Shown: positions 1-60,919 of the stretch, in pieces
How positions within the stretch are numbered: the stretch's first letter is position 1
Layout of the letters: each line of letters starts with the position of its first letter
Source: Trebouxia sp. TZW2008
Taxonomy: Eukaryota > Chlorophyta > Trebouxiophyceae > Trebouxiales > Trebouxiaceae
Length of the DNA: 64,000 nucleotides
NCBI GenBank assembly: GCA_002118135.1
Contig: BDIU01000013.1
Coordinates: 558,001-622,000 of the forward strand
Direction of reading: 5' to 3'
Made by a program: the position numbers and the translations under genes
Notes under the pieces: model-generated
The model's database searches: none
Told to the model about the DNA's origin: nothing
The model's input: only the letters and a program-made list of their open reading frames with translations

Positions 1-1117
1 GTCGGCTGCCGTACTGCATACATCACCTCCTCATTGACCTGCAACACATGCCTCCCTTGCTGAAAGTTGCACTAGCCTTGCAGTTTGTGCCGTGGTGCCG
101 TGGCTGCTGTTCTTGCAGCCGTGTGCATGACATGCAACCCTTGCCCTGTGGGCTACGATGTTGCGTAGCTTGTGACAAATGATCGTCGCTACAATGTCAC
201 ACAGTCATACATTATACAAGCTGACAGTGCTCTTCTTGATTACACAAGTGTTATCTTCACACTCCCTTCCTCCGTTGTTAACTGCGTTACAAGCGCTAGC
301 ATGTCACATACCTCACCTCTGCGTCCACCTGAGTGCGCGGCAACAGATGTTGCATATACAGCAAGCTACTCAGTGCAGACTTTGTTACAATGCCATGAAG
401 CAGAAGGAAGATGTCATCTTGTGCAAGGAAATTTCCAGGGCAAGAGCGTGACTGACCATCAAGCACCACTTTTATCTTAACACTCCCTTCCTCCGGTGTT
501 GAATGCGTTACAAGCGCTACCTTGTCGCATATCTCACCTCTGCATCCACCCGAGCGCGCGGCAACAGATGTTGCATATACAGCAAGCTACTCAGTGCAAA
601 CTGTTGAACGATGCTACAAAGCAGAGGGGTGTCGTCCTGTGCAAGGATGTTACCAGGGCGAAAGCACGGCTGACCATCAAGCAACGCCATGATGTGATGG
701 TCACATCAACACGCTGCCTGATCATGTTCCCAACTTGCATAACGGACACTCCCTCAGACAAGCTCCACTCTTCAGGTGACAGCTGATTCAGCAGCAGATA
801 GCAGACCAGACTGACAAGAAGACTCACATGAAGACAACAAAGCAAGCTGACCTGTGTGGCTTGGTCATAATGATGGTGATAATTGCTTAGGAAGTCTGCC
901 CCTGTCATGTGCTCTGGCAGATTGTGCTCATAGTGCTGCGCCCAAGTGCTAGGCCTCACACTGCACAGGTATCCATTCCCTGCAGACCACATGCGCTGTT
1001 GGCAATGCAAACAACTGGTTCTGTCATGATCATACAGTTTGCTCGTTTTGGAAGTTGGCCGCAAGCTAGCCCATGTCTTGTGCCTGCACCGCCACAGAGT
1101 ATTGGTCTTTTGAACGT

Positions 1118-1180
<63 letters not shown>

Positions 1181-1716
1181 GGCAGCAGCAGCAACAGCAA
1201 CAGCACTACAGTCACAGCACTCCAATCAACAGATGGGGCTGAGGGAGTGTATGCACACAGAAGGGTAAAGAAACCTCCCTAGCAAGCAGGTAGGTGATGG
1301 GAACAGGATGGGGGCCTACCTAGAGGCTCTGGGCCCTCTTCTGCTTTCTGCTGAGTCATGATGCGCAGGCCCATGAAGGCTCCAGCACGCACTGAGGCGT
1401 AATCTGCCCCGCCTATGCTGTGCCGCACCCCTGCAAACCCATGCTGCGTTGACATTTTGCTGACTTGCAACTTGCAGGAAGGTAGGGGACAATCGGTGGG
1501 GGTGTGGTTCATGCAAAACGCTGAGTACATAAAGACATATGTGAGTGTTGCAGGAGGGTGCTGGGGCTGTCAAGGGCCTTGACTCAGTGCTTCTCGACGA
1601 GCAAACAGACGAGCAGGCAGACAGGCAGATAAGCAGAGACACAGAGCAAAGAACAAGGATGAGCTCAATCTAGGCCCTCAGCTTCTGGCAGTGCTTACAA
1701 ATAAAGCTAGACTGGA

Positions 1717-1750
<34 letters not shown>

Positions 1751-4700
1751 CATGTGGGCAGGCAGGCAGGCAGGCAGGCAGGCGGGCATGTGGGCATGTG
1801 GGCAGGCAGGCAGACAGATAGACCGCTCTTCTGCTTGAGATAGGAAAACACAGTGCTGACCTGAGTCTAGCCCCCAGAACTTGAGGTGGTGGGGAATGGG
1901 CACTTCAGGTTCCACCTCAGCAGGCTGGCAGCACATGGCCATCAGTGCCTGTTCATCTCCCAGGGAAGACGCCATCTGGTCCATCACCCCACAGGGCGCC
2001 CCCACCACATAGTTCTCCACCTGTTCATGCATTCGTTCACTCATATCTCTTTTCACTTATGTTTCACTTGTGCATCAAATATGCTAGACAGGCTTTGGTA
2101 ATCATAATATGGCTCCCAACCACGTAGTTCTCCACCTGCGCCCCACAACTGCTTGCATCATATCAGTAAAACAGTAGCAGGGCGCCCCCATGATGTAGCT
2201 CTCCAAATGTACCACACTCCTGCTTGCATGACAGCCATCAAAGCAGGGAGTTGGAAACCTTGAAATGCATCTGCATGCACTGCTCAGCAACAGCAGCAGC
2301 AGCACCAGCAGCACCAGCATGCAAGACGTTGCATGTCAAATTTACTCTTATAGGCAGTGTTTCTTGTTTCGGGCATAAGAAGGCAAGGTGGCGCCCCTGA
2401 ATCTGCATGTCATGGGCGGCACACAGGGCCTGCATTACAGCTCATTTCACTGCTGCTCCACCACCAACAGCATGCAGGTCTTTGTGTGACAAAACCTGCT
2501 TGTTGAGCAGGCACATGATGTTGGTATCTGTGAGAGAGCAGTGTTGCTACCTTCTGGCACAACAAGGCAAGATGGCGGCCATCAATCTGTACATCGTGGG
2601 CGGCACACAGGGCCTGCATGACGGCCACCTCCACGGCCGCAGATGAGGATACCCCTTTCCCTTCTGGCACCGCACTGCTCAGCAGCAGCGAGATGCCCTG
2701 GCTGTAGCGTAGGCCCAGCTCATGCATGAGCACCACCAAGGGCCCAGCCACATATGCCGCCCAACTGCAATCAATTTAGATACGCATGTCAGTCACAAGC
2801 GGAGCAGACAGCTTGCATTGTTCTGAGACAGACAAGAGCAGAGAGAGTCTGTAGCGCCCAGCTCGTACATCAGCACCACAAGAGGTACCGCCACATACGC
2901 TGCCTAGCTGCAGTCAATGCAAGCATAGAATGCAGTCACATGCTGGTGTTGTTTCAGTGAGATGAAATGTGGACTTGGGTCTTGCTGACATGCTGGCAGA
3001 TCAGGATGACAGGTTGCAGTAGTTGTAAGCAAACATCAGTGAGATGCCCTGACTGTAGCGCAGACCCAGCTCGTGCTTGAGCAACAGCAGAGGCCCAGCC
3101 ACATAGGCTGCCCAACTGCAGCCAATGCAGTTGTGGGTCTCAGTGACAGGGTGACCAGACAGCTTGCAGTGTGTACAGGCAAATAACAGCAAGGTGCCCT
3201 GGCTGTAGTGCAGGCACACCTCATTCATGAGCACCTCCAGAAGCCCAGCCACATAGGCTGCCCCAAGTGCAGTCACGTGCTGGTGTCAGATTTGCGTCAC
3301 ACGCAGACAGATCCAGGAAGATAGAATGCAGTGTTCACAGGCAAACATGATCGAGATGCCCTGGCTGTAGCATAGGCCCAGCTCATGCATCAGCGCCACC
3401 AGCAGAAAGTAACAACATGACCTCCACTGTAGCCTGACTGCTGCTAGGCACTCTGCAGATCAGCTGCTGTGCATGCAGAAACCTGCTGAGAAGCTGGTTC
3501 ACAGGTTGACATGAGCTGTTTTATGGCTGACTCAGAGTCTCAAAGTACTGCAACATCTCCGTTGCCCATTAGAAACATATCCAAGCCTGTGTAAATGCGA
3601 GTGGTAAAATGCAACCAAGTATCACATCTGAGAGAAGTTGTGACTGAATATGCTCACGTTTAACAGCAGAAAATCCTGACCTGGTGGCAGGGTCGCTTTT
3701 GAAGTAGGCTCTAGCCTGTGAGTAGGTCAAGGGCTGCCCATCCCTCAGCAGCTCAGACAGATCCATGTCAAAGGTGGGTGATCGATTGGTGTCATCAGCA
3801 TGGAATGACACCACCCTCAGCACTGGCTTAGGACCTACGCACATCAGTTGCAGCTCATCAGAACGTCAATGCTGGAATATGGCAATGTGCAAATGGTAGT
3901 TGATGTCAATCTGAAAGCAAGGGAGACTGTCAGTGCCATCAAAGTACAACATCACCGGTGCCCTTCTTGCTGTCTTGGCACCTGCACCATTGGGCGCAGC
4001 TCATCAGAATGAAGGTGCACACAACAGTGCATGTAAAGCTGTGCAGATGTTCAACGACGTCAATGCTGAGAGCGGGGGAGATTGTCGTAATGACCAAAAC
4101 GGAGTCTCGTCAATGCCCTGTCAAGATAGCTGGGCGCCTGCAAACAAGTTCATGCCTGCCAACAGCTTACGGACACAGTGAGCTTGGGAATTGTTCATTT
4201 GACGTCATGATTGCAATGCAGCATCTCCAGGCCAGGCATGACCAACTGCCATTTGTCTGCAGCAAGTGTTGTCTGGTGCTAGCTGAATCTGTACAGTAGG
4301 TCAAATCCTCAAGTACATGGATGCGCCCAATACTTCTGGAATTTACTTTGTTCGTTGTAACAGGTCTACTCGTCATTCTTGCAGTGAGGTATTTCAGGTT
4401 CTCAACTGCACAGCTTGCAGAAGGTCGCAACATTTGATTTGCCTCAGTCATGAAGCGCAGCAGAGCCAAATCAAGAGATGATATTATGGCTCTGATGCAT
4501 GTACCTTTCATTGGAGAAGACGCTGTTCCTTTGCAGCTTCGACTTTCAACAGGCCACTGGTCAGGGCTGCAAACATCACAACAAGGGCGGCATGAGAAGC
4601 CAGCAGCACGAAAAGTATCAAGCTCAAACAGGGGCACTCCTCATAACAGCTCCCAATCTCCGATTGCTTGATCATATGCAGTGGTGTGATATACAAGCAG

Positions 4701-7700
4701 CATTTACTTTGGCCCTTGTGGCGGTTTTGAATGTGTTTCCAAAGCTTCTGCTTGTCAGGGGCCTGGCGCTGGCACGCCACATGACAGGCCTCAGCAGTGG
4801 GCTTCTGCAGCACCAGGCAGCCGCTATAGTCCCCAATGCCACCCATCACATCCAACCTGCCTGGGGCACGTGACACAATTACCTCCTCCTGCAGAAAGAC
4901 TGGGTCTGCATCGCTTCTTGTACGGATTGTGTACATGTGTGTGTGTTTCTCACAATATAATGTGAAATTCATAGCGAGACCAGACACTAACAAAGCCTCC
5001 TTGAACTGCACTTCATAAGGACTTTGAAAAGCGCAACTATCACCTCCTCCTGCCAAAGCACTGTTCTAAAGACAGGGGCTGAGTCAGTATGAGCAAAATT
5101 GACTGAATCATAAAACGTATGACATATCAATGATGCTGAAGTCCCAAATGCAGCTCATCATGTTCAGCGCTCCTCATCACAATCACCTTCTCCTAGTGAA
5201 ACAGCCTTGCTTTTGTTGGAAGCTGGGTACAACAGGGAGCACCATCTGAGAAAAGTACAATGTCTGCAAAAGCAAGGGGTTCAAGGAAGGGGGACAGAAG
5301 CTGATAGGGTGCATGCATGGATGGGCAGATGAACAAGGGAGTGAGTGGATTGGTGGGTGAGTGATTTGAGTGAGCAAGAGAGCGAGCAAGCAAGCTAGCA
5401 CTTTTTGTAAGTGATTGCTGATGCTAGCCTTTGTATTTTGGGCTGCAGTAGCGGGCAAGTGAACGTAAGGTACAATGTTGAAAAGTGTTATGACAGATGC
5501 AGTCAGCAATGACAGGTGCAGGCTGACCTGACCTCCTAACAAAACAAGCTTTGGCAGCAATAACTGAGTGAAAGGTAGATGCTATTGCTTGTGTGTGGAC
5601 AGGTGTGAAGATGAGATTGTCAAGGTGTGTGCAGCAATGACGAGTTCAGACCAACCTAACAACAGAAGAGGCCTTTGATGGTGGTGAGTGGGCAAGTGCA
5701 TTGTTGAGTGAGAGGTAGCTGCTAGTGTGTATGCGCATACATTCAAGACTGTTACGACAATTGTGTTTAGCAATGACAAGCTCAGACCGACCTCCCAACA
5801 GAAGAGGCAGCCAAGCGCTCATGCAGTGGTGGCGGATCTGCATCCTCATCATCAGAATCATTCAGGTGATCAGCATGCTCAGAAAGCTTCTGTCCAAGAG
5901 ACTTGATTGAAGAGTATCACAATGGGCGCATTCAGCAGCAAGCTGGTGCTGAGGGCTGTCCTGACAGAAAGTCTGTTCAACAGTGTCACAATGAATGCAT
6001 TCAGTAGCAGCAGATACAGACTGACCTCCCAGCAGAAGAGGTCTTCAGAAACCATTGCCAAGTGTTGACCTGGACTAGGTAAGTTCTGTCGAACAATGTT
6101 ATAACGGAGGCATTTTCTGACAGCAAGGGGTGACTGACCTCCCAACAGAAAGACTCTTGGCATCTAAAGGCTCAGGCAGTCGTGGCAGATCTGCGTCTTC
6201 ATTATCAGGGTCGTTCAGGTGATGTGCCATGCTCAGGAACCCCATGTGGAACAGGGAACTTCTACTCAAGAGTGTTGCAAGGAGCGCACTCTTTAGCAGC
6301 AGGTGCGCATTGACCTCTCAACAGAAGAGGCTTCCAGCAGCCATAACTTCCCTCAAACAGTATCACATTGGGTGCATGCAATAGCAGATGCAGACTGACC
6401 TCCCAGCAGAAGAGGCCTTTGGCAGCCAGAAGCTCAGGCAGCGGTGGCGGATCTGCATCCTCAGCATCTGGATCCTTCAGGTGATGTAGCATGCTCAGAA
6501 AATTGACTGTGTCTGGACACCGCCTCAGGTTTTCCTGGCCTGCACATAAGCATTCAGCTGTCACTCTCTGAGAGATGCAAACCATTCATGTGTACATTGA
6601 AAGACTAGCAACATTTGGGGGTCTGCATTCTCATCATCAGCATCATTCAGGTGATGTAGCATGTTCAGGAAATTGACTGTGTCTGGACGCTGCCTCAGGC
6701 TCTCCTGGCCTGCACATAAAGATCAAAAAAGCTGTCACTCTCTGAGAGCTGCAAAGTATTTATCTGTACGTTGAAAGACTAGCAACATTTGGGGGTCTGC
6801 ATTCTCATCATCAGCATCATTCAGGTGATGTAGCATGTTCAGGAAATTGACTGTGTCTGGACGCTGCCTCAGGTTCTCCTGGCCTGCACATACAGATCAA
6901 AAAAGCTGTCACTCTCTGCGAGCTGCAAAGTATTTATGTGTACATTGAAAGACTAGCAACATTTGGGGGTCTGCATTCTCAGCATCAGCATCTATCAGCT
7001 GCTGTAGCATGTTCAAGCAGGTGATTGTCTTACGAAATCATGTACATGCACTCCAGGCGCTGTGAGCACTCACAGAAGCAGTTCACTGTCGGGCCTGCAT
7101 CACCAGACGGCGGTGATGTAGACAGTCAAAGCATGGCACGAAAGGAGCAGGCACTAGGATCAGCAACAATGCTTTGGAGTTGAAGCAAGGTGAGCGTATT
7201 GGCACACCATGCAGGATGTCAAATCGGGTCATAACATCCTGGGTGGCTGCTTCAGAAGCTTGCAGCGCTGCATTGACTTTGTGTGTTTCTGGTGACGCTG
7301 CCCTGACTGCTCCAGGTACATACCACTCAGGCACCTCCACCTGTTTCACAGAAACCTTTTCAGCGGGTCACAAACTTGATGCTCAACGTCAGACGTGTTT
7401 GCATACATGCACATGACAGTGGCTGTATTACTGCAATTACTGCATTTAATGCAAGATCAGCATTAGAACAGGCTGGAGCAAAAGGCTGCAAAGCAGGCTG
7501 TGATAGGAATGGCAGAAATGCTGAAAATAGCAAATGCACTTTCCGGAGAATTGCGTTGGTAAATCGAAAGTAGATGAAGCTGTGGACTTTCAATTGTACA
7601 CACCCACATACCTTCATGGGCGGCAGTGCATCAGTTGTCAATGCAGGTCAAGTTGATTAGCTGGTGCATTCAACATGTGCATCAGCTGTGAGTTGTCTGT

Positions 7701-10586
7701 GGGTATGCCATCAGTTGTATGCCTATGCCAGGCATTCCTGCTAGCTGATGTTGCGCTGCCATTGTGCAAACAAAGTCAATAAGGGCAGCAGAGAGTCAAG
7801 GGCTTTACGAGGCTCCTGAAGCAGCATACATGCATGCTGCCCCTTTGGAGTGTTGATACCAAAGTATTGTTCATCATCAGCAACACAAACAAAGATGTTG
7901 TCCTTTCGGAGACAAACAGTGGGGACATGGAAGTTGCACCTTGCCACGGGCTCTATGCCGCTGCATCATGTATCCAAACACAATGGCATCTCTAAGCCTG
8001 CCCGCCCCAGCCCTGTTGACTGGCCTACCCCTAGGTACCCCAGAGGGGGGACCCCCATTGGCAGCCTCATCCAGATTCTCTGCTGGCTCTGGCAAGGCGA
8101 TGTAGCCTCTGTTGCGCGCAATGTGCTCCAGCATGCGGGCAACCACTTCAGCACCATTGGTTGCCTCACTGCAAGGACAGTAAAGAGTGTTACTGCCCAA
8201 GACGTAGGCCTCTGCCAGTTTGACAGAGCAATGCGGCCTCTGTTGCAAGCAGTCGGCTGCAGCATGTGGGCTGCTACCTTAGGCTAGCAGCGCCTGGATA
8301 CTCTTCAGTGCTGCAAGACAAGCTACATGCCTGATGGCCATGGACAGGTGCAAACAAGCTGTGCTTGAGAAATCACGTGAAACTGGACTCCATGGTCACA
8401 GTCTTGGGCAGAAAAGATGCCCTGCTGGCGCAGGAGGTTTCAATGATAATGTACTGATCATCTGAGGAGGTTTTGGCAGAGTCAAACTTAGCAGTCAACT
8501 GAACACTGGTCATGCATATGCATAGCTCACGTGAAATTGGACTCCATAGTCAAGGTCTTTGATAGGAAAGGTGCCCAGTTGCCTGAAAGGAAGTCCCTGC
8601 GCTTCATTTCCACTCCCAAACCATGCACCTCAAGCTGCTTCCTCAGAAAAGGCTCCTCATTGAAGTAGTCCCGCCGGATGAAGATGAATGGCGTGCCATG
8701 GCCTAAGCACTCTGATGTTGTGCCATACCCAATCTTGCCTAAGACGCAGTTGGCAGCGTTCACCTGCATACATGCATGGCATATGTCACCTGTTCTCCAA
8801 ATGTGCGCTGACTTACCTTGACAACAGCTTGATACAGTGAAACCTGATGCTCATCACAAACTCCAGGAACAGGCTGCACATCAAACATGCATGTGCATGG
8901 AGCATTGTTGGCATCTGCCTGATCATGTCACAAGCAGACACAAGCTGACTCATGAATGCAGCAAACAGGAATCTGATGCATGGCTGCATGAATGTTGATG
9001 CTTGCAAAATGATTTCATGTCTGCTCTCGCGGCACTGACGCGACAAGACATTCTAGTATGTACTGCTGATGGCTTGTAGGAAGTCATATTGGGCCTGTTT
9101 GGGCGTGCTGAGCCTGCCTAGCCCACATCTATAATGAATGAAAATGAATGAATGTTGCCGAAGTCTTTACTGGCAACACCAAATGGGTGTTGTGGCAGGA
9201 AAGGCAAGCACCTGTGCTTCAGCCTTGACGCACCATATCAGGGATGAAGTCATCAGGCTTGGCCAGGCGGAAGTTACTGGGCAGCTCTTTGTCATTCAAA
9301 ATGGGTTTCCCGCCACTGCAGATGACACACACCCAGCCCTCAGGCAGGTTCTCCTCCCTCAATTCCCAGTCACCGGGAGGCTGTCCACCATATATGAAGA
9401 CACAAAGGTGGATATCCTCTTGCAATCCTAGCTCAATGTACACCTGTGTTTGCAGCAAATGAGTTCAATGCAGGGAGTCTTTGGCATTAGCCATTATCGT
9501 ATACGTGTGCAAATACAGAAAGCAGGTTCGACGCAGCAAACGCCTGGATTCTGCCCAAGTAAGCAAGCTCACCAATAGCTGAACACACACAGAGAGTGAA
9601 ATTGCTAAAGAGCTTGATGCAATGCCCTGAACTGCAGTGCGCCTAGCTTGCTTGCCAAATGCACCACTCAGCATTGCTGCAGACAGCACATTGTGCTCTG
9701 GTCGTAGTGACTTCATATAGTAACATTCTCAAATCAATGACAAAGAGAGTGGAACCCAAGCACTGCAATCTGACTGCAGTGGTACTTCTAAATGGTGACA
9801 GCTCAGTTTACTGACAAACTTCTTGGTAGCAAGCACACTTTGTTACATCACAAAGCCACTGTACAGGCATGAATTGCCTATCACCTGGGCTCTGCTTTTC
9901 TGAGCATGTCTGACGACCAGGGGAACATCTATGACCTCTCCAAATGCAGGCATTGGAGAATACCCAGGCAGCCGCAGCAACACGCTGGCACAGGCATAGT
10001 CCTCAGCAATCTGCCACACCATTTTGCGGTAGCTGTTGCCCACATTGCCAAGAGTACTAGCATACTCTGAGTATATGAAGTCTGCAGGGGAAAGTGAAGC
10101 AAGGATTCTCTGTTTGTCACATATTGTGTGGTGTGTTGTATCAGCAGCAAGGCAACTGATGTGCATACCCCAGCTGAAGTTTGAAACACCGACAGCAGGA
10201 ATGCCAGCGGCAGCTGCTGCTGCACAGGCAATGGGGACAATGTCCACTGCCACCAAGTCAATGCTGGTGATCTTCAACCATTGCGACTCTTCTTGAAGGA
10301 TCGCATCGCGACGATCGACGGCAACTTCTTGATACAGCTGTAGTGAGCCTTTCATGTCGACCGAGAAGGCATCCTGCTGCTTGCTGCCACAGTCCAACAC
10401 AGCCCGCCTGACCGTCAGCTGTTGCGAGGGGATCTCTCTGGTGAACACGCCTGCTGCGGCCGCTGTCACGATGTGAACACGGTGGCCTGAAGCAATGAGC
10501 TGCCTACATACTTCTACGACGCGTGTAGCATGCCCGAGACCGTGGCCTGTCACGTAGTAAGCGATGTTGAGCGGCTCGGCAGGCAT
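1..10586 (-). CDS. ARA1: L-arabinokinase (GHMP kinase with N-terminal glycosyltransferase-like domain), 3' end outside window
   Basis: Predicted to phosphorylate L-arabinose to L-arabinose 1-phosphate in the cell-wall sugar salvage pathway. Fourteen exons (minus): 10169-10586, 9885-10081, 9234-9443, 8531-8763, 7940-8168, 7208-7340, 6400-6539, 4708-4888, 3681-3834, 2551-2764, 1861-2020, 1320-1430, 852-979 and 1-38 (cut by the window edge). Intron phases agree at every junction across these exons, giving 836 residues before the last exon; plant ARA1 is about 1040. Visible motifs: N-terminal [13 protein letters not shown] (glycosyltransferase-like), GHMP motif 1 [10 protein letters not shown] near residue 527, galactokinase-like GKGVSSSAA near 660, and [11 protein letters not shown] in exon 11. 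The start is the ATG at 10586; an in-frame TTG lies just upstream. The order and spacing of blocks follow Arabidopsis ARA1. Introns are crowded with duplicated exon edges (separate entries). It diverges from the T1/BTB gene. Confidence 0.93.
290..785 (-). repeat. Two decayed tandem copies of downstream arabinokinase exons in intron 13
   Basis: Seen: the stretches about 300-450 and 505-690 are homologous tandem copies sharing a 35-base near-identical core. On the minus strand both stay open through [14 protein letters not shown]. This resembles the ARA1 segment near its ALGGLLYQCH block but loses frame just after it. The part at about 690-780 resembles the start of exon 14 ([12 protein letters not shown] at 1-38). 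Inference: they are duplicated, decayed copies of exons that follow in the gene. Confidence 0.5.
1118..1205. repeat. AGC/CAG trinucleotide microsatellite, 19 pure units
   Basis: A pure (AGC) run occupies 1118-1174 (19 units), followed by interrupted units to about 1205. It lies in the intron between arabinokinase exons 12 and 13. Because the gene is on the minus strand, its transcript carries CUG repeats. Long Ala or Ser ORFs here are artefacts of the repeat. Confidence 0.95.
1719..1813. repeat. GGCA tetranucleotide microsatellite with two interruptions
   Basis: Tandem GGCA units, broken by CATGTGG spacers. They lie in the intron between arabinokinase exons 11 and 12, 48 bases downstream of exon 11 in transcription. 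In the transcript the repeat reads CCUG. Confidence 0.95.
2105..2220 (-). repeat. Two echoes of the arabinokinase exon 11 start
   Basis: Two imperfect copies (about 2110-2150 and 2170-2215) of the exon 11 acceptor and first codons (ENYVVGAPC), each carrying substitutions. They lie directly upstream, in transcription, of the true acceptor at 2020/2021. Confidence 0.75.
2280..2440 (-). repeat. Echo of the arabinokinase exon 10 end
   Basis: A copy of the last part of exon 10 (true: [23 protein letters not shown]; copy: [20 protein letters not shown] and onward) lies downstream of the true donor at 2551/2550. The copy is still open across this part but lacks a clean donor. Confidence 0.85.
2840..3410 (-). 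repeat. Four echoes of the arabinokinase exon 10 start
   Basis: Copies near 2850-2925, 3040-3130, 3190-3275 and 3345-3410 repeat the segment coding AAYVAGP and [12 protein letters not shown], with the preceding acceptor TGCAG in several. All are upstream of the true exon 10 acceptor (2764/2765). Divergence differs between copies, so they arose at different times or by serial duplication. Confidence 0.85.
5030..5205 (-). repeat. Two echoes of the arabinokinase exon 8 start
   Basis: The acceptor and first codons of exon 8 (EEVIVSRAP, true start 4888) recur in degraded form at about 5035-5060 and 5170-5205, upstream in transcription. Both have lost the reading frame. Confidence 0.6.
5510..6350 (-). 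repeat. Array of exon 7 end/donor copies, arabinokinase
   Basis: The end of exon 7 (GLFCWE followed by GTCAGTCTG) recurs about seven times downstream of the true donor (6400/6399): near 5530, 5650, 5790, 6030, 6140 and 6310, among others. Some copies also carry the upstream [14 protein letters not shown] part (5810-5890, 6160-6260). Spacing ranges from about 90 to 240 bases. Several keep the GT donor, so the spliceosome sees a row of near-identical donors. Confidence 0.8.
6600..7020 (-). repeat. 174-bp tandem cassettes duplicating arabinokinase exon 7
   Basis: Copies begin near 6604, 6778 and 6952 (period 174). The first two differ at about five positions; the third is partial. Each carries the TGCAG acceptor and the codons for the QENLR and [13 protein letters not shown] blocks of exon 7. 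The frame stays open to a GTAC donor-like site, giving a potential 114-nt phase 1-1 exon. They sit between exons 6 and 7, upstream of the true acceptor (6539/6540). Confidence 0.85.
8225..8290 (-). repeat. Echo of the arabinokinase exon 5 start
   Basis: Repeats, with many changes, the segment of exon 5 around 8100-8168 (codons for [16 protein letters not shown]). It lies just upstream of the true acceptor, in the intron between exons 4 and 5. Confidence 0.6.
8365..8425 (-). repeat. Echo of the arabinokinase exon 4 end with donor
   Basis: Copies the last codons of exon 4 (TMESNF) and the following GTGA donor of the true site at 8531/8530. It is located downstream in the same intron. Confidence 0.7.
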
Positions 10587-10895
10587 CCTGCGCAAGCTTG
10601 TGTCTGTTCTGACACTACATTACTTGCCCACGACTGTCTGGATCGACAGAGATCATCGCACAGACAGAGTGGCGCTGAAGCGCATCTCACGCACTGCCGG
10701 TATCGCTGCAGGTCGCACTGTCTCTGCTTGCACATGCGTCATGATCATGACTACCCTTACTCATATTAGTCATGACTCTACGTCACCCACAATCAGATTC
10801 ACCTGTGAAAATGCAAGTGCCGCGGGAGAAACTCGCCGTCGTTTCTGACAGGGAGGACCCTCGTACCACCCTTCCTCCGTCCGAGACGCTGCGTG
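10587..10895. promoter_or_regulatory. Divergent intergenic region, arabinokinase / T1-BTB gene
   Basis: 309 bases separate the two start codons, so 5' UTRs and promoters of both genes must lie here. An ACGTCA element (CRE/bZIP-like core) occurs near 10783. The TCATGACT-like sequences near 10740-10780 form short inverted repeats. No TATA box stands out. The function is inferred from position. Confidence 0.45.
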
Positions 10896-13656: not shown

Positions 13657-13739
13657 AGCAGACGCTAATGTGCATCCGCAGACTTGTCATGGCAACATTT
13701 GAAGCGGCTCAGCAAAGGGTGACATATTTTCCTGGTAGA

Positions 13740-41600: not shown

Positions 41601-44600
41601 CAGATGCTGCGGCAGCTGCTGCAGCCTTCACAGCAGAAGGCCTCAGAGATGATTTGTCACAGCAGGCCCAGCATGCTGAGCTGGCAAAGCGGGCACAGCA
41701 GGCCAGTGGTGCTGTGCTGAGGGGCGAGACAGACCATATGGGATTGTTTCAAGTGGACAGGTGTAGCTATGGCAGGTGAGCTTAGCTGTGCTTCTGTACT
41801 AGCAATAAGAGTGATGATGGTGATAATAATAACAGTAATAACAAAAAAGCCATAGTAACAATAATCATAGTTACAAAATTCCCAAGCTGCCTCTTTAGAC
41901 AGAGGCTCCCGCTACGACACCTAATGGCGTAGAGTCTTCTTTTCTTCTCTTTTCTTTTTCTTCTGGCTAACACTTGCAGTCAGTCAGTCAGTCTGTCTGT
42001 CTGTCTTGAGTCTATTTCTTCTTATGTTCTCAAGGCTTGTAAGGCACATGTGCTTGCAGTTAAGTTACCTAGAAATATAAAAAGTAACAAAAAGGGGGTC
42101 AGAAAAAAGGGGTTAAGTGTTCCTTGGCCCCTCTCACAATGCCAGCTGCATCTACAGCACCACTGCATGCCAATCAGATGTTTCAGCTGCTAGACAATCT
42201 TTGCCACCGGATTGTCGCTGCTGATCCAAGCTGCTCATAGGTCTTGTGCCACACAACAAACCTGGTAGGACAGCTGCAGCCAAACAGCAGCAATGCATCA
42301 CAGGGTGCATGCAAGCCTTTCTTTTGTTTGCAGTGTGGACTGTTTGCATGTGCTTTGACAATGTTTGCTCGAGAGAATGCGCATCTGCAGATGGTCAGGC
42401 ATGGATGCTGGTGATGATGACATGTGCCGCACCTCCTCGGCAGTGGCCACTCCAGAGTCCTCCTACGCCACCGCTAGGCCTGTGCCACCCTCACTGTCCC
42501 ATCGCTCAGAGTCGTCTGGCCACAGCTCACGCAAGGGACATCTGCCGCCTGTGTACAGTGTTTCACCTGTCATTCACCATCACAGGTCTGTCGTTGGCAC
42601 TGTGTATTATAACCGCCTGTCACAGGGCAACAAAACACATAGCCCAGGAAACATAGTCATTGAAGATATTGCAGCTTTGCCATAAGCAGCAAAGTGCATA
42701 CATCGTGTTGTGTATGGGGTTCGGCAACCATGCAGAGTCTGCCGTGACCATGAGCAAATGTCACTGTCATTGATTGCATGCTTACAGCGCCTTACCTTTG
42801 TATCCGAAAATATTGTTGCTGTCAGGCACTCCATTCACCATCATGCTCATGCATAGCTACATATCACTATGACACTATTACAACCCAGAGTTTGCTGCTA
42901 GCATGTTTGCATGGGACCTGATTGAGCCATGTGACTCTTGTATGCATGCATTTAAAATGGCAAAGTGCTTGCAGGCAGCATCAGTCCAATGCAATTGAGT
43001 CTGCAACCAGCCCCTTTGCTACTGCCCTGTCCTTCTCAAAGGCCCCAGCCCTGCCCAAGCCAGCTGCTCCAGATGCTGACACACCACGCTTTGCCACACT
43101 GGGCAGATCAGACCACAGATCAGCAGCTCAGTCTCCTGATCAGCGCAGATCAACTCATCATGCCAACAGATCATCCTACGCTCATCAATCATCATCCCTA
43201 GCTCAGCCGAGATCATCCCAGGCTCACATGCTGTCTGCTTCATCAGTCAGAGATCCTGCGGCAAGTCCAGAGCGTAGTCATGGTAGCATGCTTGAACCCT
43301 TCTCAGATGCGCATATGAGTCGATTAAGGTCATCATATCATGCCAGCAGCGGGCAAAATCCAGGCCATTCTCGTCTAGGGTTGAGGCCGCCGCTGTACTC
43401 ACAGGATGCTGACGCAGCCTCACCAGCAAGGGCATCCTCCAGCAGCCCTTACAGCAGGGCATTCCCCGGCAGCCCCTACAGGTCACCTGCTCACGCAGCT
43501 GCCGTCTCTGCAGTCGAGCAGCAGCTGCACACCTCACTGCACAGACAGTCAGGGCAGACTGATTCTGCTAGGGCTGGGCCGCACAGCCCTGCCCCTCAGC
43601 AACAGTCAGCGGCTGGCATACCTCTTGAAGACCGCTATCAGCGGTGGACTGGGTACACTAAAGCCGCTGATCCATCAGTTGCGCAGCAAAGCAGCCATGA
43701 TCAGCATCTGCACGCATCAGGCCTAAGGCATGCTCACACTACTGCTGAGCAAGCTCCTGCCTTCAGACCAAGTGAAACAGCAGCGCAACCCAGCTTGTTG
43801 CTCGAGCCCTTGAGTCAACAGCTCAACCCCTCGCCTGAGCTTGATTCCTTGAGTCAGCGCTTGAGGGAGCAGAAGCTGTCCATGGCTAGGCAGGGCCAAA
43901 CAGGGAACAGCCTTCTTGCAGGCGGGCCTGTGTACAGCCCTTCCAAGGGCTATTTGGCAAACAGCCCTGCAAGGGGCTATGGTGCAAACAGCCCCTTGGC
44001 AGACAGGCCTCCTAACAGCCCTGCAACGGGCTATGCGGCAAACAGCACCTTGGCAGACAGGCCTGCATACAGCCCTGCAAAGGGCTACGCTGCATCTACA
44101 AATGACTCTGTGGGTTTGGGGCTGTATGGCTCGTACAGGCAGCCAACCAGGACAGGCACTGCACCCTCAAGGTATTCTGCTTGCCATTGCGCCTTTGTGC
44201 TAGCATACCCTGATGGTGGCCTTTGCAGTTTGATGCCAGCTTGATTTGATTTGGGTGACAAAATGGCGCATTGGTCGTTGACATGTCTGCGTCAGATTCT
44301 CTGGCCAATGCTGTCCACTCCTCTCAATACAGCTGTCACTCCATCAGTCCCTCAAGTACCCAAAAGATGATAATGGACTGTTGAATGCTGTCTGTCTCTG
44401 TGTATCTAAGTGTACACTTCCTGGCCTTCACCAAGCATTCTCCTCAAGCACATCACCCAGACAGTGTCATTTGTCATTGCAGGTCAGCATATGCTGCAGC
44501 TGCTCCAGAAGCTGGAAGGGCCTCCTCTCCAATGGCCCTACAGCAGGGCCGTTCACTGCGTGGCCTGAGTCGGCAGGATGCCAACAGTGACCTTCAGGCC

Positions 44601-49683: not shown

Positions 49684-49762
49684 CATGCTATGGTATCACA
49701 TGGCACAAAAGTGCAGCTGCTGTTTGAGCTGGTAGTGCTCGAGTAAAGCGAGATTAAGGCTA

Positions 49763-52700: not shown

Positions 52701-53224
52701 GTATGGCTCTGTAGGGTACTCAAACTGCACTGTGGCACTGCTGTCATCTTGCCTCAGCAGTCGGCCTAGATGCCACTGGCCGTTTGGAGCTAAGAATCTG
52801 GACAGCACCAGCATGGTTGCATTCTTGTCAAAGAAGCGAAATGAGCATAGCTGCTGTGAGGAGTAATCTGCCAAACCTATGCAAGGCCCCCACTTGGCTG
52901 CTGCTCTGATGTGCTGGCCCGTCTTGAAGCTTGTTTGCTGCCTCAAAGTCGGACAAGGCTAGCTGAGTCTCTTGCACTCCAGTAATAAGTTCTTGATGCA
53001 GCTGCAAACAAGACTCCGTCAGCTTGGTGAATTTTGGAAGCTGCATTTTCTGCAGAGCTGCAAAGCTGCGCGCATAGGCTGTCAAGCATTGGCTGCATAG
53101 CTCGCTGCACCTGGATCAGCTCTGCAGTGGAGTCTTCAGCCAGCAGTGCTGCGATCTCCTCGACAGCGGCTTGTTGCTCCGCTAGCTGTGCCAGCAATTG
53201 ATCATGTAGATTCGTGTCGTCCAT
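49763..53224 (-). CDS. G-patch protein of the ZGPAT type
   Basis: Exons (minus): 53111-53224, start of second at 53049, a large exon ending at 52293, then 51895-52047, 51340-51449, 50611-50875, 50190-50276 and 49763-49879 (stop). An N-terminal helical segment (LHQELITGVQETQLAL) is followed by a Tudor-like part (SRFLAPNGQWHLGRLLRQ), an acidic stretch (SLSEDEEDEPGS), the G-patch RGIGSKLLASMGYVKGTGLG in exon 4, a basic KKRKRGG, GIFSLINSRLG and a C-terminal coiled coil. This order fits ZGPAT-like nuclear proteins. The CCCH zinc finger expected before the Tudor part is not seen. The join between exon 2 and the large exon near 52900-52960 is unresolved. G-patch proteins bind RNA helicases or act in splicing or transcription; the exact role is inferred. 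Confidence 0.72.
51525..51670 (-). repeat. Echoes of the G-patch gene exon start at 51449
   Basis: The acceptor and codons for VSLYPSGAGLGSVPVTE recur near 51535-51605 and, shorter, 51640-51670, upstream of the true acceptor. The nearer copy keeps a GCAG acceptor and the codons for GLGSV. Confidence 0.75.
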
Positions 53225-53565
53225 AGAAACCAGACGAACGTGTCGAGGCAACAGAAACAAAACCAGGTGGTGTCAACACATGCAGCTGAAACCGCTACCC
53301 AACCTTATGCAAGTGCAGACGAGCAGAAGTTAAATCAGCTTCTGCAAAGTATGTATTGAAAGAGATTTGGCCGCGCATTCGAGTCATGTCTGGCGCCATG
53401 CTGCTACAAGTGTGAGTCAAAGTCGCTTCAGCGTTTTCTCACAATTGTGACATCGCAGCAAAGCCGTTTCGTCTTCTAAACACGAACAAGAAAAGTGCTT
53501 CTTCGAGTCAAACTTCTTGGCGTGACAGCATCGCTCCCGTGCATCGTGTCGCACACGTTGCTCAA
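53225..53565. promoter_or_regulatory. Divergent intergenic region, G-patch gene / CLPTM1
   Basis: 341 bases between the two start codons must contain both 5' UTRs and promoters. I see no TATA-like box or strong palindrome. Confidence 0.4.
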
Positions 53566-56500
53566 ATGGCTCCTCCTAGGGCAGCAGCAGTCGCGCAGCC
53601 CGGAGCTGAGGCTCCAAGAGGAGAAGACACCAAATGGGGAATCGGGACCGTGCTGCGCATGCTAGCCATCTTTTGGTTGGTGAAAAGCTTCTTTGGGGGC
53701 TCAAGCAGCCCGCCTAAGAACGCAGTGCGCAGTGACTATTATTGGCCCAAATTCAACCGATCGGAATCAGTAGATTTCTATCTGTACGGTTCAGAAAGTG
53801 CGAGTTTCACTGACGTCTCTGACCAAAGCAAACTTATATGGACGCAAAGGAGTGTACCACTAGCCACAAATCAAGAGACCAGCCTCCAGTATCAATACCA
53901 TCCCAGCAAGGTGATTTGTGACCATCTGAGTTGCTGAAGACAAGCAAACGAAGGCTGTTCTGACAAGCCCTGACTGTGAGCGCAGGATGTACAGCACAAC
54001 GGCACATTCTATTTGTACGCATATGTGGTCAGGTCAGGTCGGCCGTTGGATCGCACGAGCCCACGCTTTGACCCTGACAGCGTGGCAGTCAAGCAGCATC
54101 GTAAGTCTCCCCCTCCAAGTAACCTTCACCACTAGAGCAGATGATGATCAGCTGAACTGTTTGGCCCTGTCACTTGTCTGGCGCAGCTTGGGCTGCATAC
54201 AAGGACACACATTTTGGCTGAGCTCTGACACTGGGTTCTGGAAGCACCTGCCAAGCTTTGCTTAAGCATAAGGGCAAACGTGTTGAGCCTACTCCCACAG
54301 AGTGTTGCAGAAGCCTTTGCAAAGCTTTGCTTGCACATCAGCACAAACAATCCAGCGCTACCCTGCCCTGCCTTGCCCTCACCTTGTGTTGCAGTACCTT
54401 CAGCAAAGCAGGCAGCAGTGATCAAATTGTTGTTGCAGACCTGATCACCTGGCTGCCTGCATGCAAGAAGGCTTGCACATAAAGGCAAACCTTTTGAGCC
54501 CTACTCTAGCAGCGTGTTGCAGTACCTTCTGCAAAGCAGGCAACAATGAGCAAACTGTTGTTGCAGAGCTGATTACCTGGCTGCCTGAAAAGAAGACAAA
54601 GCAAGGCATCAATTTGTTGTCTGGGCAGGACAGCAAGGGTCTTCAAACAACACATGAGGAGCAAGCTGAGCTTGCAAATGTCCCACGGAGCTATGTCTCG
54701 TATCTGAAGCCAAACATGACTGTGGTGTTGGTTGATGACTTCACAAAGTACCCTGCTAGGGGTATTCCTCAGCCGGTGCGTGCTCCCTGCTGTGCTTGAA
54801 CCGTTTGTATGACATAGGCTTCTGGGTTGCTTGTATTCATTGAGGCTCTCATTGACGTCCAAAAGCATAAACTGTGCTTTGCCTTTGATGGCACAAGCCC
54901 TGTTTCTGCTTTACTGCGCCAGCCTTTGTCCGTCGCTGCAAGTGCACATCTTAAACCCCAAGGTGATGGCCAGGGCTTTGAAAGCATTATTGCATGCTTT
55001 ATGTCTCGATGCTGTTCATCCACAACTGGGCATTCTGCGCATGGCAGCTCTTCCGAGTACAGGGAGAAAAGGATTCCGGGAGAATCCGTTGCAGATGCCT
55101 CCTTACATGATTGCTTTTTTATTTGAATGACACTCCAACGCATGCAAAACCGTCAAGTGTTCTATTTCTCAGTCGCACTTCTTGCTTGCCTTACAGTCTG
55201 TGGAGCCTTGCATGTGGCCACCATGGTCTATGGTCTTGCATCAAGCCTGATGTGATGCCTTTTGTTTCTGCAGATGGCAGAGCACATGTCATTCAATCCT
55301 ATGGCTATGGAATATCACCCAATCATCTGATACAATGAGTTCGGGACGCTCAGGAACCACCCAATTGCCACAAGCAATACATACTGCATCAAGCCTGGTT
55401 GATTGCCCTTGTGTGGTGCAGATGGCAGAACTCATGTCACTCGATCCTGTGGCCATGGAATACTACCCGACCATTTGGTTCAATGAGTTCTGGCTGCTCA
55501 GAGATTATCTCATTCCCATGAATGATACAGTGACAGAGGTTCCTCTTACCTTCACCCTGACCAGCATGTCACTGACCAAGTTCAGCCTGATGTCCCAAAT
55601 GGACCAAGCCTTCAGCAAGCAGGTACGCACCAAAAGCATCGCCATGACCAATCACAGCACCATCTTCATCTCCAGCAGCATCACCAACAGCAACATCATC
55701 ACCAACATCATCAACATCAACATCAACATCAACATCAACATCATCAGCACATTCTTGCGATTCAGATCATTGGACCAAGCTAGGTGCATACAGAAGCAAG
55801 CTGAACCAGCATGCGTCAGCACATACCCTACATGTACAGCATGCTTCAGATAAAGTCTTATGACCAATGTACAAAACGAACAACAATTGTTGACACACCT
55901 TGCTAGTCATGCATGTGCTACTAGTACAGTATGCAGTACAAATAGTACATCCACAGGACAGGTACACTTCAGGTCACAAACACTGGGCTGCTTCTACTTG
56001 AGAAAGCTCTCTGTACCATACCAACTGGCATAGACTATTAGATCCTGAAGTTTGCGCAGTTTTTTGTTACCTTGTCCCCTTCATTGATGATGTTTCAGCT
56101 TGACATGTGCATGCAGCAATCCTGGGGGGCCATGGGTGAGGGGGAGTCAGATGAGTTCAAGAGGGTGTTGCTGGAGGGCAACCCCTTCTTCCTCGCCCTC
56201 ACTTTCTGCGTCTCCCTGCTGCATTCCGTCTTCGACTTCTTCGCCTTCAAGAATGACATTGGGTTCTGGAGGAACAAGAAGAGCGTGGAGGGTTTGTCTG
56301 TGCGCTCCATTGGTATCAACTGCTTCATGCAGGCAAGTCAAGCTTAGTATGTATGGCCAGCTTGCTGTGGACTGCAGTCCTTGTAATTGCCAAAAACTGT
56401 ATTTGTTGAAAATTTCTGTCTTGTGGCCAATTTTCCAGAGTCAAAGCGCCGTGCTCTGCTTTGTTTTGCTGCATTGCTGCAATTGCTGCTGGCATCTTTT

Positions 56501-59500
56501 GGTATGTTTTGAATATTTGTCCTGATAGATTGAGTGAATCATAAAACTGGCAGAGATGAATGAAAAGAGTTTTTGTACTTTGCTTTGTTGCAGCTGATCA
56601 TTTTTCTGTACTTGCTGGACAACGAGACAAGCACAGTGGTGCTGCTCAGCGCTGGCGCTGGCACTGCCATTGAGTTCTGGAAGGTGACCAAGGCCATGAA
56701 GGTGTCCATTGACTGGTCACGCGGTTTCCCGCTGCCTAAATTTGAAGACAAAGCAGGTACGCATGTCTAAAGCAAGCTGACTTGTGACATGATTTGCTTG
56801 CAAAATGTTGCCTGCTCCACTGAAGTTGGGTCACTATTGGTGTGCAGAGCAATTCTGCATTAGCAACAGCTTAATTGTGTGAGTCTACTTTGTCGCTTGG
56901 TGCTGCTCATCACTTGACCCCAATTTACGGGTCAGAGACTTGCAGTGCCAGTACTGATTTTCATTCTACAGCTGTATGCTTCTGTAGTGCTTGGTGGCCT
57001 TCTAACCACATAACTTGCTGCGCTCGTTACCAAATTGTCACCTGCATTGCCTCCAATGATGTCTGCTCTGTGACGATGTCATGGTGTACGAAACACAACA
57101 TACATTGCTGTGAGGGTCTCACTGTGGTGTATGTGGTGTATGTAATGATACAGGTTGGCAAAATTCTCTCCAGTAACACCAAGAAGTCTTGACATACATG
57201 AATGATGTACAATGATGTGACATGCATTTCATTAAATTCAACGTGATAATGCCCATGTTGCAGACTCACATCACTTCTGGCAAGACCCCAGAACATGACA
57301 TACAAAGTAGCTGCGAGTATTGCAAGCCTTGTGTTCAGCTGAGCATGCTTGTATTTGTGTTGCAGGTTACAATAACTCCAGTGAGACAAAGAAGCATGAC
57401 GCTGATGCCATACGGTATCTGAGCTACATGTGCTATCCCTTGCTGATTGGTTACGCCATCTACAGCCTGTACTATGACACCCACAAGAGTTGGTACAGCT
57501 TTGTGCTGAACACTCTGGTTGGGGCTGTCTACACCTTTGGCTTCATCCTTATGTGTCCTCAGGTCCGCTCCTCTTCATCTTACCTGTTGACCCTGTCTTG
57601 TCACTGATCACTGTGCCTATTTGCTGTGTACCTCTTTGGCTTCATCCTCATGTGCCCTCAGGTCCGCTCCTCTTCATCATACCTGTTTAATGTGTCTGGT
57701 CACTAATCACTCTGCCTTTTCATTTTACACCTTTGGCTTTGTCCTCATGCGCCCTCAGGTCCGTCCTTCTTCACTGTGCCTCTGGACTTTGCCTCCATGC
57801 TGTACCTCATGACTCTGCCTGTGCATCCGCTCAAATTGTCGTGCCACGGGAGGCAGCCATCCTGAGTCACCCTGAGGTGTCATTGATAGCTAAGCTATGC
57901 TGCTGTTATTCTTGATTGTGCTTGCGCTTGCTTTGTTAGTGTATCTGTGCTGCTCCTGTACATGTGCTGCAGATCAACTCTCAGGCATCAGACTAATCAT
58001 CAGATATCATGTACAGAGAAGCGTCTGTTGTTGAGGAGCTTCATGTATGCTGCAGCTGTGCATGTGCTGCAGACCTGCTCCAAGGTATCAGACTTTGCAC
58101 TCATCTTGAGTCTCTCACAAGGCAAAGTCTGTTGCGAAGCAGCAGCATGCTTGCCGCGCATCAAGTCCTAGGGGTTACAACAGCTTTTTGACCATCAGGT
58201 ACACGGCAGAATGTCTTGATGTGTTGTGCAGCTTTGCGTATCATACAGACCAGCTTCTGGGTTCTAGGCATCCAAGTCTGCTTGCATCAGGTACAAGGGA
58301 GAATGTGTTGAATGTGTTGCTAACAATGTGCACATGTGATGCAGCTGTACATCAACTACAAGCTGAAGACTGTGGCAGCCCTCCCCTGGTGCCAGATGTA
58401 TTATCAATCATTCATTGTCATATTTCTGGTCACAATGCAAAGCGGAGTCTGGTGCTGACAGACTGCATGTTTGCTGCAGCTGTACATCAACTACAAATTA
58501 AAGAGTGTGGCAGCCCTGCCCTGGCGTCAGATGACCTACAAGTTCCTTAACACCATTGTGGACGACCTCTTCGCCTTTGTGATCAAGATGCCCTGGCTGC
58601 ACCGCCTTAGTGTCTTCAGAGACGATCTCGTGTTCCTAGTCTACATCTATCAGCGCTATGCTTACAGAGTGGACAAACGCAGAGCCAACGAGTTTGGGTG
58701 AGCCCTTAGATGACACTCAGTACTTCCCTGCCCTTGTCATGTGTCTTTGTGATCAAAATGCCCAGGCTGCACCACCTCAGTGTCTTCAAAGGCGATCTGG
58801 TTTTCCCAGTCTACATCTATCAGCGATACGCTTACAGAGTGGACAAGCGCAGAGCCAACGAGTTTTGGTGAGGGCCGTCATATCTGTCAACTTGGGTTGG
58901 AACTTTTTTGTCCTTGCCTTGAACTCATGAGTGTTTTGGCAACTGTCCTTGGCGGTGTCTTGCCCTTCCCTTGTGTTTGTTGGTGATGATGGCTTCACAG
59001 AGTGGACATGCATAAAGCCAACGAATGTCGGTGAGTTTCTTGAAGCCCATTGTTCAGCATTGTGTTGCCCTTGCCTTGTGCCTTTGTCATCAAGGCACTG
59101 GCTGTATGTCTTCAGAGACAACTAGATTTTCCCAGTCGACATCTAGGAGCGCTATGCTTACAGAACGGACAAGCGCAGAGCCAATGAGTTTGGGTGAATG
59201 CATTGAAAGCCATTGCTGCAAAGTGTCTTGTTCCTTTCTTGGATCTGGTCAAGACAAAGAGACAGCCTTTGCCGCTTGTGTGCTGTGTGTTGCAAGCTCA
59301 GGTCCAGTCTTCATTTATGTGTGCCATCACAACTGGTCACTATTTACATGACTGCCTCATAACACTGCATCAGCTTGTGAACATGTCATATTTGGCCTAC
59401 TGAGTAGAGATGCTTCAAGTCGTGTGTTTGCCTGGAATGTAGCTGTTAGACTGAGCAAGCTGCTTGGAACGGCTACATGAGCAATCTGCTTGCAACCTGC

Positions 59501-60919
59501 TGTCATAGAGCTAGTTTGTGATACCCTGGCCTGTAGCATCCTGCTTGTGTGTTGCATGCTGGCACTTACGTCCTCAACGTGCCAGGTGAGACAATAGCAG
59601 CTAGTTCTCGTCTCAGTTTCACACTGAAGCTGTTGACACTGTGTCAATATGCCATGCAGCTATGCTGCAGAAGCAGACCCAGAGGACTCAGAGGCTCCAC
59701 AGCTTGTGCCCTTGACTGGAGCCTCAGACCAATTAGCCACACCCAGTGTGGGCAAGGTCAGCACCAGACCCCCAGCTGCATCAGAGGGGCGTCCCTGCTA
59801 GCTATCATCTCAATGTTTAAGGTTTGGGGTGCTGACCCTCCCTTTGTGTGGCATGCAGCTATGCTGAAGAAGCAGACCCAGAAGAAACTGAATCCGAGGC
59901 TCCACAGCTTGTGCCCCTGACTGGAACCTCAGGTCAATCAACCGCACCAACGGTAGGGAAGGTCAGCACCAAACCCCCCGCTGCTTCAGAGGGGACCCCC
60001 CTGCTGGCTGACAGGGCAGGGGACACAGCCCATAAGCCCGTTGGGGATGCCCCTAGGGCTGCAAGAGACGGCCCCAGACAGGTGGAATCAGTCGGTGGAG
60101 ACGAAGTTGAGACAAGCACACTGGATGGAGAGGAATTTGTTGATTTGGGTCAGAATGCAATCATTCAAGAGCTAGAACCTGAAAGGTGAGCTGGGATGAT
60201 GTGCCTGTGATGATGTGGCCAGAGATCAAACTGCATGAAAGTGCAATCCTGTTCAGACCTAGCTAAGTCCTGCAAGTTTTGCTGGAAGCACACCATTTCA
60301 TGATAAAATTGCCATGCATACTGCATCATAGCTGCATGTGCCCTGCATCATAGCTACATGTGTGCCTGACTTGGTCAGTGCAGAGTGCAAGTGCTGTATG
60401 CGCTGTGATTACGCATGCTTGTATGCATATCTGCATCAGCTTGCATGCATAGAAAAGCAAAGACAAGTCTGTGCCATTTGGCATTACAATGGAAGCTTCT
60501 GTTTAGGCAGCCCAGGAATGCGGCTTTGAGAGCAGCAATCAGCACATGCATACATCAACTGCAGTGATACTGTTACACAATGTGTCACCTGTCATGGTAA
60601 GCATTGCTTCTCACCTGCAACATGACACACTGTCAGAAGGGCTGCGGTGGACGTAGCAAGCTTTGAAGTCAGCACAGGACCAAACTGGTGGGACATAGTT
60701 GATTGCTCCAGTACATACTTAGCTGGGCCTGCTAAGCCTGTCCAGCATGCGTTTTGATCAAAATGAGTGAAAAATTTTTGACAGGAAGTGAAAGTTGCCA
60801 CATTGTGCAGGGCTGCGCAACATGGAGGTGCTGCAGCGCAGACTGACCAAAGCATGCCTTCAGTGGCAGAGGTGTTGGATCGCATGAAAGTGCCCAGTGA
60901 GGTCAAGAAGACAAACTAG
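53566..60919 (+). CDS. CLPTM1: CLPTM1 family multi-pass ER membrane protein
   Basis: Ten exons, every phase consistent: 53566-53910, 53986-54100, 54567-54775, 55422-55622, 56099-56332, 56594-56756, 57366-57562, 58480-58697, 59859-60185 and 60811-60919; 705 residues, close to animal CLPTM1 (about 669). A membrane anchor (MLAIFWLVKSFF) is followed by the luminal part and family blocks: YVSYLKPNMTVVLVDD, YYPTIWFNEFW, GNPFFLALTFCVSLLHSVFD, FKNDIGFW, EGLSVRSI, LYLLDNETS, YNNSSETKK, INYKLKSVAALPWRQMTYK, IYQRYAYRVDKRRANEFG. The C-terminal tail is acidic and Pro-rich. Exon 56099-56332 ends in a GC donor (CAG|GCAAGT). Known relatives act in ER folding and trafficking of receptors and in lipid scrambling. 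Introns are rich in exon-edge echoes. Confidence 0.95.
54200..54545 (+). repeat. Tandem echoes of the CLPTM1 exon start at 54567
   Basis: Units of roughly 65-145 bases end with TTGTTGTTGCAG plus codons for LITWLP. The copy at 54425-54473 is the clearest, with partial ones near 54215, 54270 and 54340. They precede the true acceptor and share an intronic part with GTGTTGCAGTACCTTC. Confidence 0.8.
55195..55375 (+). repeat. Echo of the CLPTM1 exon start at 55422
   Basis: From about 55273 the acceptor CTGCAG and the codons for the MAELMSLDPVAMEYYPTIWF segment are copied, but with frame-breaking changes. The preceding intronic part (CATCAAGCCTG...) is duplicated too. Period about 150. Confidence 0.85.
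55655..55752. repeat. ATC/AAC microsatellite
   Basis: Imperfect (ATCAAC)n and (ATC)n units starting about 35 bases after the donor at 55622, in a CLPTM1 intron. Confidence 0.9.
57625..57780 (+). repeat. Two echoes of the CLPTM1 exon end at 57562
   Basis: The segment coding TFGFILMCPQ with its GTCCG donor recurs at about 57632-57690 and 57722-57775, downstream of the true donor. Both keep CTCAGGTCCG, so both are intact decoy donors. Confidence 0.9.
57940..58405 (+). repeat. Echoes of the CLPTM1 exon start at 58480
   Basis: Copies of the acceptor and of the codons LYINYKLKSVAALPW lie near 57945, 58045, 58215 and 58337-58402. The last is almost intact (GATGCAG acceptor, KLKTVAALPWCQM). The earlier ones are increasingly decayed, a gradient with distance from the true exon. 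Confidence 0.85.
58741..59200 (+). repeat. Three echoes of the CLPTM1 exon end at 58697
   Basis: Copies of the segment coding VIKMPWLHRLSVFRDDLVF through RRANEFG, with the GGTGAG donor, at about 58741-58880 (best), 58975-59045 (partial) and 59080-59200. All lie downstream of the true donor. Confidence 0.9.
59650..59805 (+). repeat. Near-intact duplicate of the start of CLPTM1 exon 9
   Basis: Copies about 140 bases including the CATGCAG acceptor of the exon at 59859. In the correct phase the copy stays open for about 49 codons (AEADPEDSEAPQLVPLTGAS and onward) and then ends in TAG. Use of this acceptor would give a shorter alternative C-terminus. Confidence 0.85.
60450..60517 (-). mobile_element. 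Short dispersed repeat, copy C (decayed)
   Basis: Third copy of the two-hairpin element: an A-rich tract, then the GTGCC/GGCA stem and a degraded second stem, ending in GGCAGCCCAGG as in copy B. In the last CLPTM1 intron. Confidence 0.45.

Follow-up and report, generated by a model that had tools for sequence, protein, structure and literature searches.

Copies of exon edges in the adjacent introns of a Trebouxia genome probably stem from tandem duplications across exon-intron borders

Growth of introns is usually attributed to transposons. The stretch of Trebouxia sp. TZW2008 DNA analysed here (64,000 nucleotides of contig BDIU01000013.1; hereafter the window) raises the question of whether introns can also lengthen by copying their own borders, since a reading of the letters alone (the sequence-only reading) had noticed degraded copies of the flanking exon edge together with its splice site in the introns of at least six genes. 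We call these copies echoes and asked whether they are real, whether they extend beyond the window and which process explains their shape best.

We compared the window with 20 regions, each from another contig of the assembly (68.5 Mb, 527 contigs), and about 300 kb of this one genome was analysed, at places which were chosen and not random. The repeat-rich regions L008 and L011 were excluded from gene finding, leaving 18 other contigs and the window to be counted; both are unlike the other 18 regions, with 84 and 50 local inverted matches, respectively, besides many direct ones, and with a lower GC content (0.42 and 0.45). For two genes we fixed the introns by homology, using a spliced protein-to-DNA aligner written for these models and two sister proteins per gene, which yielded 13 introns for the arabinokinase and nine for the CLPTM1 gene (22 introns, 44 exon edges). 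The arabinokinase draft is 71% identical to the protein of Trebouxia sp. A1-2 and the CLPTM1 draft shares 77 and 79% identity with the proteins of Trebouxia sp. C0006 and C0009; the templates disagree at two arabinokinase donors and in the region near the CLPTM1 acceptor 59859. A hidden Markov (HMM) gene finder, trained on the homology genes and on long open frames of this genome, reproduced the homology exons of the two genes nearly exactly. It also added extra ones, calling two echoes of the arabinokinase and one of the CLPTM1 gene as exons, which is a warning for gene annotation. For the main count the HMM models of these two genes were swapped for the homology models, resulting in a set of 240 introns with 480 edges (window and 18 loci), in which exons shorter than 25 nt and introns shorter than 40 nt were left out, the searched exon edge comprised 120 nt (150 nt in the homology-fixed genes) and the echo threshold was 32 bits. 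A Pfam search with six shortened proteins out of the 36 predicted genes identified patatin, helicase C, CYTH with uridine kinase, AAA lid and Noc2 domains in the five from sample loci and the FUSC domain in the one from the window.

Compared with itself at 30 bits or more, the window contains 98 direct but only 10 inverted repeats, of which 84 and 3, respectively, lie at most 1 kb apart; at 50 bits, 49 direct repeats, all within 1 kb, compare with four inverted ones. This self-comparison gave no local repeats of at least 40 bits past 60.1 kb of the window. Direct repeats at distances of 60 to 1000 nt (at least 40 bits) are present in 15 of the 18 sample regions and local inverted repeats in two (L010 and L018), and first-order Markov shuffles of the 20 sample loci produced no match of 35 bits or more.

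In the homology-fixed genes, 13 of the 44 exon edges have a sense echo of at least 30 bits in their own intron (23 echoes) and none has an antisense one, while eight more same-strand matches lie in the neighbouring intron and two elsewhere. The main count revealed 94 sense echoes in the edges' own introns, one antisense echo, 25 matches on the other side of the same exon and 24 matches in all unrelated introns together, corresponding by approximate arithmetic to an own-intron rate about 900 times the unrelated rate per edge-intron pair. These 94 echoes are distributed over 62 of the 480 edges, 55 of the 240 introns and 15 of the 19 sources. The held-out regions L035 to L039 gave 20 own-intron echoes, none antisense, 10 matches on the other side and none in unrelated introns, the echoes being found at 16 of 88 edges and in 14 of 44 introns. 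Copies thus lie on the same strand and adjacent to their source, as tandem duplication requires (94 versus one antisense; held-out 20 versus none). This confirms that the echo pattern is real, that it extends beyond the window and that the copies, as the sequence-only reading had proposed, are private to their own exon and not dispersed.

Within the window, the count depends on the threshold, with 39 echoes at 32 bits, 43 at 30, 45 at 28 and 47 at 25 bits, so that the earlier figure of more than 45 requires the lowest of these thresholds. Echoes were found in the arabinokinase, FUSC, CLPTM1 and coiled-coil/TPR genes, the coiled-coil and TPR genes being merged in our model; for the G-patch gene, also named, they were not reproduced. 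The gene regions are:

852..10586, minus strand, L-arabinokinase gene, homology-spliced by alignment to P0001 and P0002, with further introns running on to 39; 13 echoes at 32 bits
22952..31324, minus strand, FUSC-family gene, HMM model; 14 echoes at 32 bits
32634..49029, plus strand, coiled-coil and TPR region, one merged HMM gene; five echoes at 32 bits
53566..60916, plus strand, CLPTM1 gene with 10 exons, homology-spliced by alignment to sister proteins; seven echoes at 32 bits
61609-62415, GNAT frame, outside the counted intron set, in the part past 60.1 kb that lacks local repeats of at least 40 bits

The gene in the G-patch region (W.5) has no echo at 32 bits, and the gene model there may be wrong. 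The BTB gene (W.0) shows no match at 32 bits either, in agreement with its description as free of echoes. Repeats internal to exons of the coiled-coil/TPR gene are in frame; at 43918-44094, inside a coding exon of the coiled-coil gene, lie in-frame 27/54-nt repeats.

The echoes in the arabinokinase gene, all on the minus strand, are:

3401-3352, 3263-3187, 3115-3034 and 2904-2851 (within 2851..3401), four echoes upstream of the acceptor, matching the start of exon 2764-2551 at 78 to 94% identity
2368..2441, downstream of the donor, 82% identical to the end of exon 2764-2551
7015-6967, 6883-6793 and 6709-6619 (within 6619..7015), three echoes matching the start of exon 6539-6400 at 82 to 88%, the latter two lying within a 174-nt tandem array
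6239-6139, 6045-6026 and 5885-5792 (within 5792..6239), echoes of the end of exon 6539-6400
8377..8422, 80% identical to the end of exon 8763-8531
8228..8271, matching bases 29-72 of exon 8168-7940 at 77% and ending short of the edge

Those in the CLPTM1 gene, all on the plus strand, are:

55274..55353, echo of the start of exon 55422-55622, 80%
57623-57661 and 57726-57758 (within 57623..57758), both matching the end of exon 57366-57562 and keeping its GT
58345..58398, 87% identical to the start of exon 58480-58697, AG kept
58745-58865, 58992-59024 and 59080-59193 (within 58745..59193), three echoes matching the end of exon 58480-58697 at 82 to 90%, of which the longest comprises 121 nt at 90%
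59660..59802, 81% identical to the start of exon 59859-60185

One of the two templates prefers the echo acceptor 59660 over 59859, with an odd added intron.

The echoes are copies of exon borders. Of all 94, 73 reach to within 5 nt of the exon edge, and among these edge-touching echoes the AG is kept in 27 of 40 at acceptors and the GT in 23 of 33 at donors. At 23 of the 40 acceptors and 18 of the 33 donors the echo site scores no lower than the 5th percentile of the modelled real sites, a level reached by 11% of the AG and 13% of the GT dinucleotides in introns. Introns with echoes have a median length of 651 nt, those without of 386 nt, and none of the 64 introns shorter than 300 nt carries an echo; the sequence from the farthest echo to its junction amounts to 10% of the sampled intron bases. 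Over 6006 aligned nucleotides of the 94 echoes the mismatch rates at the three codon positions are 0.131, 0.098 and 0.220, the alignments contain 55 gaps, most of them a single nucleotide long, and 13 of 1909 codons are stops, which together fits an untranslated copy beside a constrained exon. Comparing the echoes of the two homology genes with the sister proteins, we found 28 lineage-derived amino-acid states shared with the exon and four sister states kept (sites counted per echo), indicating that the origin, or the last homogenisation, of most echoes postdates the split from the sequenced Trebouxia strains; for the claim that the process is ongoing this is indirect support. Haplotigs or recent paralogues suitable for dating did not emerge for the first 20 kb of the window, which gave only short assembly matches among the matches listed. 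A rise of divergence with distance from the exon, part of the earlier description, is not borne out, as 11 consecutive pairs agree with it, eight run against it and one is tied.

The explanation that fits best, with a probability of roughly 0.7, is that small tandem duplications straddling the exon-intron border made the echoes, the outer original site still being used and the extra copy staying intronic. Offsets of exon-intron pairs have a median of 181 nt (10th to 90th percentile 108 to 396 nt), the middle half lying between 135 and 276 nt. A duplicated acceptor would give the order tail, head, tail, head, in which splicing to the last acceptor would yield the same protein and turn the first head into the upstream echo; a duplicated donor would be the mirror image with its echo downstream. 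The spliceosome would keep the outer original site, so the extra copy would likely persist in the intron, whereas a duplication wholly within an exon would have no such escape by splicing and would survive only in frame. Introns would thereby likely grow without a change of the protein, the echoes being predicted to be skipped by splicing. We infer the duplication mechanism, the use of the modelled splice sites and any selection acting via splicing from sequence comparison.

This model accounts for the side on which echoes lie, because only the outer site restores the protein. Copies on the right side outnumber those on the wrong side by 39 to 3 for exons of at least 200 nt, by 47 to 15 for exons of 120-199 nt and by 8 to 7 for those below 120 nt; the rule that start-copies lie upstream and end-copies downstream is therefore strong for long exons, but not absolute as the earlier 'always' implies. 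It accounts also for the reading frame, as the offset is divisible by three in 12 of 12 pairs of exon-internal duplications (about five arrays) but in 29 of 104 exon-intron pairs, a contrast that would follow from indiscriminate duplication of which splicing tolerates only the border-spanning events. Two findings speak against the model: the duplication-pair count includes 17 inverted pairs beside 185 direct ones, and intron-only duplications are rarer than uniform duplication predicts, being present in 20 of 240 introns compared to 56 expected.

A tandem unit across a junction should carry an intron half next to its exon half. We evaluated the nearest echo at 53 edges, one of which was dropped for its short spacer (one of 13 was skipped in the held-out set), and in 25 of the remaining 52 the spacer matches the echo's other flank (p<0.01). 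The other 27 individually show no clear matching intron half, while simulated full neutral units are detected in 96%; pooled, their in-register similarity still beats the controls, with p=0.0005 for acceptors and p=0.018 for donors (12 pairs each, 40 nt). The 25 matching intron halves, the frame rule, the longer introns and the decoy site scores make duplication across borders the best-fitting reading, and in this and in the privacy of the copies the sequence-only interpretation stands, while its age-distance trend and its G-patch gene do not.

The two halves are not found equally often. Junction-touching matches with exon-edge and intron-edge queries number 73 and 15 in the 176 main introns of at least 300 nt, to which this comparison was confined, and 16 and 3 in the 33 held-out ones. 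Neutral simulations of full units in the same pipeline give exon/intron ratios of 1.3 to 1.6, and more or longer indels, considered as a cause of the imbalance, bring the ratio to at most 2.6 even when heavy. Simulations in which the intron half decays 2-4 times faster, best about threefold, approach both the observed ratio and the share of matching spacers, the simulated echoes being slightly too similar (about 87 to 88% versus 84.7% observed). Exon halves thus turn up about five times as often as intron halves, which would correspond to a roughly threefold faster decay of the intron halves, and simple neutral duplication fails to explain that the exon halves outlast them. Between pairs of echoes the intron halves match in 11 of 27, though both halves are intronic there. 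Low complexity does not explain the fast decay, the halves showing no difference in that direction.

A possible, if doubtful, amendment is that the same duplications took place and the exon half was afterwards refreshed by gene conversion from the exon or weakly selected as a splicing-relevant decoy end; its probability overlaps with that of the main reading because it accepts the same duplications. The roughly threefold longer persistence of exon halves speaks for it, as do the echoes lacking a clear intron half, which keep the GT in 12 of 14 and the AG in 9 of 13 cases and have a lower nonsynonymous share (108:112 versus 109:71; Fisher p=0.026, unadjusted), a hint of constraint. Conversion, however, would be expected to homogenise the intron halves too, a run-length test revealed no conversion-like identity runs, most gaps shift the frame, and the branch-length estimates for echoes and exons are noisy. 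We put forward only tentatively that the exon half, together with its splice motif, survives about three times better than the adjoining intron half, that splicing-level selection or exon-to-echo conversion thereby maintains long-lived decoy exon ends, and that this might be a general route of intron growth in the lineage.

If instead only the exon edge and a few intron bases were copied, in events bounded by the splice site and lacking a full tandem unit, homology would end near the splice motif, as it does in 27 of the 52 nearest echoes. The in-register copying of the intron half in the other 25, the residual in-register similarity in those 27 and the lack of a known mechanism yielding such ends make this unlikely. 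Still less probable is that echoes are remnants of whole-exon duplications, including mutually exclusive exons: some short exons are indeed copied on both sides, e.g. the arabinokinase exon 6539-6400, and the 25 matches on the other side of the same exon would fit, but the far end of the 120-nt edge is reached by only 9 of the 94 echoes, the 39:3 side ratio of long exons is unexpected, and with their mostly single-nucleotide gaps the echoes are not complete open-frame exon copies. Dispersed introner-like mobile elements, chance or assembly artefacts can hardly account for the pattern in spite of short dispersed elements in the window, since echoes match their own exon and seldom another intron, shuffles lack matches, substitutions follow the codon position, and the spacers and flanks of the 27 unclear echoes, considered as dispersed elements, match at most one other of the fetched loci, and that weakly.

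Introners are dispersed copies of one element and represent a lineage-level process shaping many introns. The process described here resembles them in the latter respect and differs in that echoes are private to their own exon, copies in unrelated introns being outnumbered 24 to 94 and, in the held-out regions, none to 20. Internal duplications across gene structure are reportedly common (Gao and Lynch 2009, as cited by others), and may overlap with the exon-edge copies described here.

A close single case is the potato RdRp gene, in which a junction-spanning tandem duplication gave rise to a new intron that uses a cryptic donor (Ma, Lan and Niu 2016, PMC4974935). The segment duplicated there runs from the 3' part of an intron into the 5' part of the following exon, with splicing signals inherited from the parental copy, as they appear to be here; unlike that one event creating a new intron, existing introns appear lengthened here, on acceptor and donor sides, in 55 of 240 introns. 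In the Rogers-type model of intron gain, as outlined in a review (PMC3443670), a duplicated exonic AGGT makes a new intron. Both processes involve a small intragenic tandem duplication resolved by splicing, but the unit of that model is exonic, whereas the unit proposed here spans an existing junction and extends an old intron: 73 of 94 echoes reach the exon edge and 50 of these 73 keep AG or GT, and they are thus not copies of wholly exonic segments. Single junction-spanning duplications are therefore already known. For a genome-wide pattern of exon-edge copies in introns we found no report in the open-access literature, and passages of two algal genome papers contain no description of it, which is weak evidence for the absence of a precedent.

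If the main reading, duplication across the border, is correct, it is a route by which introns can grow without transposons; 55 of the 240 sampled introns carry copies of their own borders. It would also provide a natural experiment in which the spliceosome ignores near-identical rival sites, as 41 of 73 edge-touching echoes score like a real site.

Some minor observations concern repeats and elements of other kinds. The protein of the HMM gene L005.0, which has no echoes, resembles a retrotransposon polyprotein by eye. A short element at 9094-9159, inside an arabinokinase intron, has no tRNA or Rfam match, in line with the window as a whole, in which no tRNA or Rfam genes were found; it has at least 20 other copies in the assembly at about 88 to 94% identity. 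The segments 4402-4537 and 9685-9866 each have about eight dispersed matches in the assembly, among the matches listed.
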